Part shown: positions 19,944 to 22,059 of the stretch, piece after piece | Position numbering within the stretch: position 1 is the first letter of the stretch | How the letters are laid out: every line of letters starts with the position of its first letter | Source of the DNA: Geothrix sp. | Lineage (GTDB): Bacteria > Acidobacteriota > Holophagae > Holophagales > Holophagaceae | Reading direction: 5' to 3' | Assembly (NCBI RefSeq): GCF_020622065.1 | Contig: NZ_JAHRYQ010000001.1 | Span: 1,240,001 to 1,304,000 of the forward strand | DNA: 64,000 nucleotides | The notes under the pieces: generated by a model | What the model saw: only the letters and a program-made list of their open reading frames with translations | Told to the model about the DNA's origin: nothing | Databases searched by the model: none | Program-made: the position numbers and the translations under genes

Positions 19944-20399
19944 TTAGAGGGCCGGGTCCATCCAGGGCAGCACATCGCTGGGGCGCCCGGCCACATTGCC
20001 CAGGCGCACCGCCACGACCACGATCCAGCCCTGGGGCCGCTGCAGCGAGCCCAGGTCCATGGTGAAGGGCTCCCCGGGTCCCGGCAGGTCGGGGCGCCGG
20101 CGCTCCAGCACGACCTCCCCGTGGTTGAAGACCTCCTCGGGCGAGGGCTTGGCGAGGGCCAGGGGAAGATACAGCACCCGGACCAGCTCCACCCCCGCCA
20201 GGGGATCCCCCTTCACATCCGCCGGAGGCAGCGTGAGCCGGACTTTGCGCAGGCCTTCCAGCCGGACCTCGGGGGCCTGGGCGGCCGCGCGCGGGCGGGG
20301 GATGGGATCGCCCTTCCGCCCGCAGTGGAAGATCAGGACGCCAAGCGTGATGGCGAGCAGCGGGTTTGCTAGGCTGGAGAATCGCATCGCCTCCATCAT
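19944..20399 (-). CDS. small lipoprotein, CGxKGxP type
   Basis: A protein of about 151 residues with a lipoprotein signal ending VLIFHCGRKGDPIPRP. The CGRKGDP sequence after the lipidated cysteine resembles the N-terminus of YifL/LptM-like and fibronectin-type small lipoproteins in Gram-negative bacteria. The mature part has beta-rich segments (VRLEGLRKVRLTLPPADV and GWIVVVAVRLGN) like a single fibronectin type III-like fold. Function is unknown; the likely location is an outer membrane or periplasmic anchor. I used the first of three close ATGs (20399, 20396, 20387), and the choice is uncertain. It is divergent from the biotin carboxylase region, with only 21 bases to the duplicated start codon there. 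Confidence 0.72.
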   Translation of the reverse strand: MMEAMRFSSLANPLLAITLGVLIFHCGRKGDPIPRPRAAAQAPEVRLEGLRKVRLTLPPADVKGDPLAGVELVRVLYLPLALAKPSPEEVFNHGEVVLERRRPDLPGPGEPFTMDLGSLQRPQGWIVVVAVRLGNVAGRPSDVLPWMDPAL

Positions 20400-20420: not shown

Positions 20421-20561
20421 ATGCCCGTGACCAAGATCCTGATTGCGAACCGCGGGGACGATGACCCCTCCGGGGTCGAGCGGAGCGAGGGAGCGGGAGC
20501 GAAGCGATCGGGGGCAGGTCCCCGCGCAGGCCAGCGATCCAGCACCCCTGAGCAAAGGTGA
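20421..20561 (+). CDS. 46-codon upstream reading frame duplicating the biotin carboxylase start
   Basis: The frame starts at ATG 20421 and reads MPVTKILIANRGD, identical for 12 residues to the start of the carboxylase gene at 20566. It then diverges into a low-complexity stretch rich in S, G, R and E and stops at TGA 20559-20561, four bases before the carboxylase ATG. It may be a broken duplicate start, a translated leader coupled to the next gene, or non-functional. Both differences within the shared 36 coding bases are synonymous (CTG/TTG, GCG/GCC). A purine-rich site GAGG lies 7 bases upstream. Translation is unproven. Confidence 0.4.
   Translation: MPVTKILIANRGDDDPSGVERSEGAGAKRSGAGPRAGQRSSTPEQR
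20451..20526. repeat. nested inverted repeats, possible REP-like palindromic insert
   Basis: Outer arms CGCGGGGAC (20451-20459) and GTCCCCGCG (20518-20526) are perfect. An inner hairpin GACCCC-TCC-GGGGTC spans 20463-20477. Between them is a purine-rich stretch built on GAGCG/GCGAG units. Such nested GC-rich palindromes resemble REP or other non-autonomous palindromic elements; no transposase is nearby. Confidence 0.65.
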
Positions 20562-20565
20562 GCCC

Positions 20566-22059
20566 ATGCCCGTGACCAAGATCTTGATTGCCAACCGCGG
20601 GGAAATCGCGATCCGCGTGATCCGCACCTGCCGCGAGATGGGCATCCCCACGGTGGCCGTGTATTCCGAGGCCGATCGCGGCGCCCTGCATGTGCGCATG
20701 GCAGATGAGGCCTACTTCATCGGCCCCGCGGCGGCCCGGGAGAGCTACCTGGTGCTGGAGAAGATCCTGGATGTCTGCAAGCGCAGCGGCGCCGACGCGG
20801 TGCATCCGGGCTACGGCTTCCTGTCCGAGAACGCCGAAGCCGCCAGGGCTTTCCAGGCGGCGGGCATCACCTTCATCGGGCCTCGCCCCGAGTGCATCGT
20901 GAGCATGGGCTCCAAGACCGCCGCCCGGGAGGTGGCCATCGCTGCGGGCTGCCCCGTGGTGCCGGGCATCCAGGAGACCATGGCCGATGAGGAGCTGCTG
21001 GTCGCCTCCCAGAAGATCGGCTTCCCCGTGATGCTCAAGGCCGCCATGGGCGGCGGCGGCAAGGGCATGCGCCTGGTGCACAAGCCCGAGGAGTTCACTT
21101 CCTCGCTCGCGCGGGCGCGCGGCGAGGCGCTGTCCAGCTTCGGCGACGACAGCGTCTATGTGGAGAAGGCCATCGTCCAGCCCCGCCACATCGAGATCCA
21201 GATCTTCTCCGACACCCACGGCAACCATGTCTACCTGCACGAGCGCGAATGCTCCGTGCAGCGGCGGCACCAGAAGGTCATTGAGGAGGCGCCCAGCCCC
21301 CATGTGACGCCGGAGATGCGCAAGGCCATGGGCGAGGCGGCCCTCAAGGTGGCCCGGGCCGTGAACTATGTGGGCGCGGGCACGGTGGAGTTCCTGGCCG
21401 ACGCCGACCGGAACTTCTACTTCCTGGAGATGAACACCCGCCTCCAGGTGGAACATCCCGTCACGGAATGGATCACGGGCCTGGACCTGGTGAAGTGGCA
21501 GATCCTCGTGGCCCGGGGCGAGCAGCTGCCCATGACCCAGGAGGAGATCCCCCTCAACGGCTGGGCCATGGAGTGCCGCGTCTACGCCGAGGACCCCGAC
21601 AAGAACTTCATGCCGAGCCCCGGGAAGATCACCTTCCTGCGCACCCCCAGCGGCCGCAATGTGCGCGATGACAGCGGCGTCTACGAAGGGGCCGAAGTGC
21701 CCATGTTCTACGACCCCATGATCAGCAAGCTCAGCACCTGGGGGCCCACGCGCCTCGAGGCCATCGAGCGCATGCGCGCGGCCCTGGGCGAGTACCGCAT
21801 CGGCGGCATCCGCCACAACATCGCCTTCCACGAGGCGCTGATGGAGCATGAGCCCTTCCGGGCCGGCGCCCTGCACACGGGCATGCTGGACAAACCCTTC
21901 TGGAAGCGGAAGGGGCAGGGGCCCGACCTGAAGTTCGCGGTGGCGGCGGCGCTGCTGCACGAGCTCGAAACCGAGCAGCGACGGGCCACCCAGCCGTCCG
22001 CCGGGGGCGAGGGGAAACCCGATGCCTGGAAGCACTGGGGCCGGTTCAACCGGTTGTAG
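20566..22059 (+). CDS. biotin carboxylase subunit of an acyl-CoA carboxylase
   Basis: A 497-residue ATP-dependent enzyme that carboxylates biotin on the carrier protein encoded ten bases downstream. The layout is biotin carboxylase N domain (KILIANRGEIAIRVIRTCRE), ATP-grasp with MGGGGKGMRLV, HPGYGFLSEN, the catalytic EMNTRLQVEHPVTE, and the C domain with EDPDKNFMPSPGKI. It is longer than AccC (about 450) by a C-terminal tail that resembles the linker of propionyl-/methylcrotonyl-CoA carboxylase alpha subunits. I chose ATG 20566 because AAAGGTGAG lies just upstream. No carboxyltransferase gene is adjacent, so whether it serves acetyl-, propionyl- or another acyl-CoA is open. Confidence 0.93.
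   Translation: MPVTKILIANRGEIAIRVIRTCREMGIPTVAVYSEADRGALHVRMADEAYFIGPAAARESYLVLEKILDVCKRSGADAVHPGYGFLSENAEAARAFQAAGITFIGPRPECIVSMGSKTAAREVAIAAGCPVVPGIQETMADEELLVASQKIGFPVMLKAAMGGGGKGMRLVHKPEEFTSSLARARGEALSSFGDDSVYVEKAIVQPRHIEIQIFSDTHGNHVYLHERECSVQRRHQKVIEEAPSPHVTPEMRKAMGEAALKVARAVNYVGAGTVEFLADADRNFYFLEMNTRLQVEHPVTEWITGLDLVKWQILVARGEQLPMTQEEIPLNGWAMECRVYAEDPDKNFMPSPGKITFLRTPSGRNVRDDSGVYEGAEVPMFYDPMISKLSTWGPTRLEAIERMRAALGEYRIGGIRHNIAFHEALMEHEPFRAGALHTGMLDKPFWKRKGQGPDLKFAVAAALLHELETEQRRATQPSAGGEGKPDAWKHWGRFNRL

Follow-up and report, generated by a model that had tools for sequence, protein, structure and literature searches.

A structured palindrome family at duplicated gene ends in Geothrix, with one member before a biotin carboxylase gene

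The biotin carboxylase gene of a Geothrix genome has a duplicated start, and the insert between the two copies is probably one of a genus-wide family of small structured palindromes that encode no protein and behave like non-autonomous mobile elements at the boundaries of genes. The core of the insert, here called H, is a three-armed palindrome of ~60-75 nt. H has a compensated three-arm fold, is dispersed, adjoins partial duplications of gene ends in most of its copies, and occupies sites that are filled in some genomes and empty in their close relatives. We infer that H moves, and the family looks like a tiny mobile element of an undescribed kind.

The biotin carboxylase locus

The window, meaning the whole stretch of DNA analysed, comprises 64,000 nucleotides of a 3.35-Mb genome assembled in two contigs. 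Two copies of an accC-like gene start, at 20421-20458 and 20566-20603, are spaced by 145 bp and identical at 36 of 38 bases, and both mismatches (CTG/TTG and GCG/GCC) are synonymous; coordinates and alignment thus confirm this repeat as it was given in the preliminary description. Ignoring base composition, two 38-mers that differ at only two positions are estimated to arise by chance in 64 kb with a probability of ~1e-10. The 46-codon frame opened by the first copy was likewise confirmed, its TGA being separated from the real ATG at 20566 by four bases (20562-20565). The downstream gene encodes biotin carboxylase (NCBIfam NF006367, score above the cut-off) and is followed by a BCCP-like gene. 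The features of the locus are as follows.

20367..20375, + strand: TGCTAGnCT, an extended -10-like motif and the probable native promoter of the carboxylase gene, conserved upstream of filled and empty sites in most members of the genus
20421..20458, + strand: truncated first gene-start copy (direct repeat copy 1); in genomes with an empty site the rest of the gene joins directly at this position
20421..20561, + strand: 46-codon upstream open frame, its TGA separated by four bases from the real start; 14 of 15 full-length A-type genomes retain it
20461..20520, + strand: three-armed palindrome H, matched by covariance model R1 (E 1.4e-5 over 199 kb) and showing covariation
20463-20468 with 20510-20515, + strand: closing stem of H, with covariation
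about 20470-20496, + strand: arm of H with a triloop, with covariation
20499-20505, + strand: mini-hairpin GCGAAGC of H, with covariation
20521..20565, + strand: spacer S, from the sequence
20554-20558, + strand: AAAGG within spacer S, a putative Shine-Dalgarno sequence
20559-20561, + strand: stop codon TGA within spacer S, from the sequence
20566..20603, + strand: second repeat copy, the real start of the intact gene, from the sequence and the NCBIfam identity of the gene
20566..22059, + strand: biotin carboxylase (accC-like) gene, from the open frame and the NCBIfam match

Among 36 same-genus genomes compared, the insert lies upstream of the carboxylase gene in about half, and about half have a clean empty site in which identical upstream sequence is joined straight to the gene. 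The preliminary description had also considered a chance duplication, or a one-off neutral duplication should the insert prove absent elsewhere; both are refuted, as many related genomes show this arrangement too and the core of the insert is found elsewhere in its own genome. In version A of the insert the unit measures 144-145 bp with a gene-start copy of 37-38 bp, and in version B (G008, G009, G027, G063, G065) it measures ~195 bp with a copy of 68-86 bp. Tandem units are present in G019, G063, G066 and G067, and also in G028, there with contig breaks, and shortened units were identified in G017 (134 bp) and G033 (89 bp). Presence is scattered on the accC gene tree, the well-supported branches of which require at least five changes for version A. 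The gene-start copies within one genome show 2.0 differences per 28 nt, compared with 3.2 between first copies of different genomes, and this closer match within genomes indicates that the copies have been homogenised. The synonymous changes, previously taken as a hint that the first copy is translated, do fit translation, but given these values they fit gene conversion from the real gene equally well. Draft assemblies start or stop in or near accC repeat arrays (L039, L042, L041 and L058; genomes G028, G023, G033 and G062), and the copy numbers there are therefore underestimated.

Structure and dispersal of the palindrome

The alignment of 22 H copies from many loci of the genus yielded a fold in which a closing stem carries two arms, one with a GNA triloop and one that is variable in sequence yet still paired. 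At accC the closing stem joins GACCCC (20463-20468) to a partner at 20510-20515 that reads GGGGTC in most relatives and GGGGGC here, and compensatory changes are present too in the last arm of the accC copies, the mini-hairpin GCGAAGC. Covariation amounted to 0.393 in the starting alignment, versus 0.119 in shuffled ones; with 94 matches from five genomes, 20 of the 24 pairs carried double changes and the value was 0.495 (0.135 shuffled), although this second alignment was fitted to model R1 and the figures of the starting alignment are less biased. Among the inverted repeats listed in the preliminary description, GACCCC thus belongs to the conserved stem, whereas the GACCCCTCCGGGGTC palindrome is restricted to this genome and the outer CGCGGGGAC/GTCCCCGCG stem shows no double change and no covariation.

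Plain BLAST of the insert against its own genome returned no second copy, only chance matches of 14-30 nt, and the H family became detectable only through relatives and a covariance model. With model R1, whose E-values are rough, H was matched in all 47 genomes of the genus at 3-41 copies each, with nine copies in this genome and 41 in one relative, and three further genera of the same taxonomic family also gave matches. A search of the genome for further copies of the inserted segment, as proposed earlier, therefore fails for the whole insert, which is in single copy, and succeeds for its core, which occurs at other loci. No paper on such gene-end repeats was found in the literature.

Several H copies have peculiar surroundings or loops. 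The last-arm loop often consists of a stop codon followed by ATG (TAGATG, TAAATG or TGAATG; L119, L123, L129, L134, L136, L146), so that termination and re-initiation inside H could be conceived from the sequence. Inverted H pairs ~9 nt apart, without flanking direct repeats, occur within a longer dispersed repeat (L206, L212, L213, L217, L229), and at L189, L193, L230 and L233 H is inserted in another dispersed, terminator-like repeat with GCAACGCATGCGTTGC-type palindromes. Two genomes from another family of the phylum have H within domain I of a group II intron (Rfam RF02001/RF01998; L332:538-775, L333:511-663), and an intron carrying H is a possible vehicle for spread. A distant genome has, on a contig of 6 kb (L334, G164:C136:2400-3680), an insertion at a queE start that resembles the genus type, reflecting either contamination or transfer.

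The preliminary description had further suggested a regulatory leader, in which case the insert would be a cis-regulatory RNA of the carboxylase operon whose spacer element GTCCCCGCG switches, in the manner of an attenuator, between the first and the second gene start. The spacer can indeed pair with either gene-start copy, and the 46-codon frame and its stop are retained in 14 of 15 genomes. However, attenuator-type switching was rejected for want of covariation in the outer pairing, the RNA fold is no more stable than its shuffles (z-score +1.06), about half of the genomes do without the insert, and no Rfam family comes near its gathering score for the insert. In addition, H occurs in unrelated genes, antisense at gene 3' ends and beside tRNA genes, and an RNA switch of this type is very improbable.

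A REP-like element with a long target duplication was the closest of the earlier suggestions, in that a dispersed structured palindrome and duplications at dozens of loci have both been found. H shares with REP/REPIN sequences (RAYT, TnpA_REP, Y1) that it is short, dispersed, hairpin-forming, non-autonomous and GC-rich, and with MITE, ERIC and Correia elements that it is small, has no coding gene and is present or absent between relatives; a review of small mobile sequences is available (PMC2229807). Nevertheless, a REP sequence is a hairpin of 20-40 nt with a GTAG foot, whereas the H unit has three arms and ~60-75 nt, with GTAG seen in one subfamily only and on its 3' side. Most H carriers also lack Y1/RAYT (PF01797), which was identified in five of the 47 genomes and not in G000, the genome described here, and RAYT/Y1 was rejected as the mover of H on account of its absence from the other 42. 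The duplications beside H are tied to gene ends, commonly over 20-220 bp, and stop at gene boundaries, so that their outer edge lies at a start or stop codon and their length varies from 7 to about 220 bp instead of being short and fixed as in MITEs; no terminal repeats of a known transposon were identified at H, and the search for an autonomous partner covered PF01797. The probability that H is a classical REP/RAYT or MITE-type repeat is close to negligible.

Duplicated gene ends and empty sites

Direct repeats of host sequence flank 62 of the 82 H copies in the five genomes used for flank statistics (score of at least 20, against a null median of 9 and a 95% level of 12), several of the other genomes being draft assemblies. 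The upstream repeat copy mostly stops 3-4 nt short of the start of the H model. The remaining 20 copies have no strong repeat and include intergenic copies, inverted pairs and copies within other repeats. Read on the H strand, the layout runs from a gene boundary to the gene interior, then through H and a spacer, and again from the gene boundary into the complete gene, with units of ~75-260 bp (145 bp at accC) and duplicated ends of 20-220 bp depending on the locus, or 7 nt at hemC. In most first units the repeat sets in within ~12 nt of a start or stop codon, the exceptions being second units of arrays and a few loci. The target genes, named from their translated ends and with reading frames assigned from codon composition, carry H at their starts (accC, miaB, mnmG, uvrA, queE, rsmI, a YbgC-type thioesterase gene and a hydrolase gene) or, in the opposite orientation, at their 3' ends (recR, an XerD-like recombinase gene and others); H also occurs near tRNA genes, a tRNA-Arg gene being one target. 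In the recR gene with H, the intact gene terminates in RRPL, encoded by the spacer, where the native end is RRPIG.

In 14 of the 15 full-length version-A genomes the upstream frame at accC is still 46 codons long, with its stop (TGA, TAA or TAG) 3-4 nt ahead of the real start, despite the diverged spacer; in version B the frame stops 33-43 nt upstream. At mnmG, at most miaB copies and at the hydrolase gene, a frame opened by the truncated copy passes through H to stop on the ATGA of the real start, and in one miaB copy it ends in TGATG, while the 5' insertions at uvrA, queE, rsmI and ybgC have no frame ending on the real start. To judge from this conservation, coupled translation over the upstream frame may be common, but it is not universal. 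Rickettsia palindromic elements (RPE) are palindromes of ~100-150 bp within reading frames, translatable and read as part of the protein. H likewise lies within reading frames and is translatable; it differs from RPE in that the gene is restored next to the element, whose own frame stops at the true start.

Certain integrative elements restore the gene they enter, with a direct repeat that spans the interval between insertion point and gene end and keeps the gene functional, and the H units show such a repeat. They might accordingly be remnants or minimal versions of integrative elements for which gene ends serve as att-like sites and which restore the gene end, with H as part of the recombination site. 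At 5' and 3' ends alike, identity does begin at the insertion point and stop at the gene end, and the tRNA-Arg gene is among the targets. Yet the units span only ~75-260 bp and contain no integrase, a single H family occupies a great many different genes, and a phage, plasmid or viral vehicle was rejected because H had no match in phage, plasmid and IMG/VR collections at the settings used, all of which makes this origin distinctly improbable.

A short copy of target sequence adjoins H at some loci, inverted at miaB, ybgC and mnmG and direct at a ribosomal-protein-like gene and the tRNA-Arg gene, and to judge by these sequences it hints at template switching during insertion. A guide-like target copy is clear by eye at miaB, ybgC and mnmG, but it was not adopted as a general rule, the pooled test being weak (5 of 43 above the 95% null).

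As expected of a mobile element, the sites at accC, mnmG, recR, ybgC and hemC are empty in some close relatives. The mnmG site is filled in G000, G014 and G024 and empty in the sister genome G032 (98% identical), and clean empty sites were found for ybgC in G025 and for recR in G025 and G017. Upstream of hemC, G000 carries a composite element that contains H. It is inserted where the stop and start codons of two genes overlap (ATGA), and 7 nt are duplicated there (CATGAGA/CATGAAA). This composite was found in G000 only among eight genomes, G032 and six others being empty, and gain is therefore the simplest reading at this site, where the insertion looks recent; at the other loci, the patchy presence fits precise loss through recombination between the repeats just as well. 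A composite repeat (ATGAGnACGAAGCAGGAGCG followed by H) also lies directly upstream of start codons at L335 (G000:C1:1230950-1231409) and L343 (G000:C1:825708-826147); it forms a short open frame that terminates on the ATGA or GTGA of the next gene, and it is absent at hemC in seven relatives.

The same patchiness could have arisen by replication slippage if the H copies were old fork-stalling hairpins, now immobile, at which template switching generated local tandem duplications and selection kept those that spared the gene. Tandem arrays and changes in unit length, the direct or inverted target pieces adjoining H at some loci, the ease of loss through the repeats and the scattered presence would all be accommodated. 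Slippage is nonetheless unlikely, given that the left end of H forms almost the same junction in dozens of unrelated genes, the empty sites are clean, hemC is filled in G000 only, and H would still have had to reach all these genes.

Proposed mode of insertion and its implications

It is conceivable, and proposed here tentatively, that entry of the three-armed palindrome into a gene end and duplication of the sequence between the start or stop codon and the point of entry occur in a single step, whereby the gene is rebuilt and, for 5' insertions, translational coupling through the element is kept; H would then represent a new class of protein-less mobile elements. According to this scheme, H with its spacer would insert into a gene end, the segment between the start or stop codon and the insertion point would be duplicated with or after insertion, and the rebuilt gene would survive, selection retaining only those insertions that leave the gene whole. 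Recombination between the gene-end copies might later delete the unit, multiply tandem arrays and homogenise the copies. The native promoter and ribosome site of accC would now serve the 46-codon peptide, and the enzyme would most likely be made by ribosomes that terminate and then re-initiate at the second start. Neither a transposase nor an integrase or reverse transcriptase could be linked to H, Y1/RAYT (PF01797) having been searched in 47 genomes. Repeats that halt sharply at the ends of coding sequences are not what a simple or random staggered cut predicts, and this sharp stop is the most interesting point left by the data.

If the proposed mode of insertion is true, the H family would offer ~60 natural sites, many of them in filled and empty versions, for work on the mechanism, and wrong calls of gene starts and contig breaks in the genus would be explained. 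Small palindromes would then be able to colonise housekeeping genes, including miaB, uvrA, mnmG, recR, tRNA-Arg and hemC, without destroying them, because each insertion brings a rebuilt gene end, and this would explain in a new way why insertions are tolerated in compact bacterial genomes.
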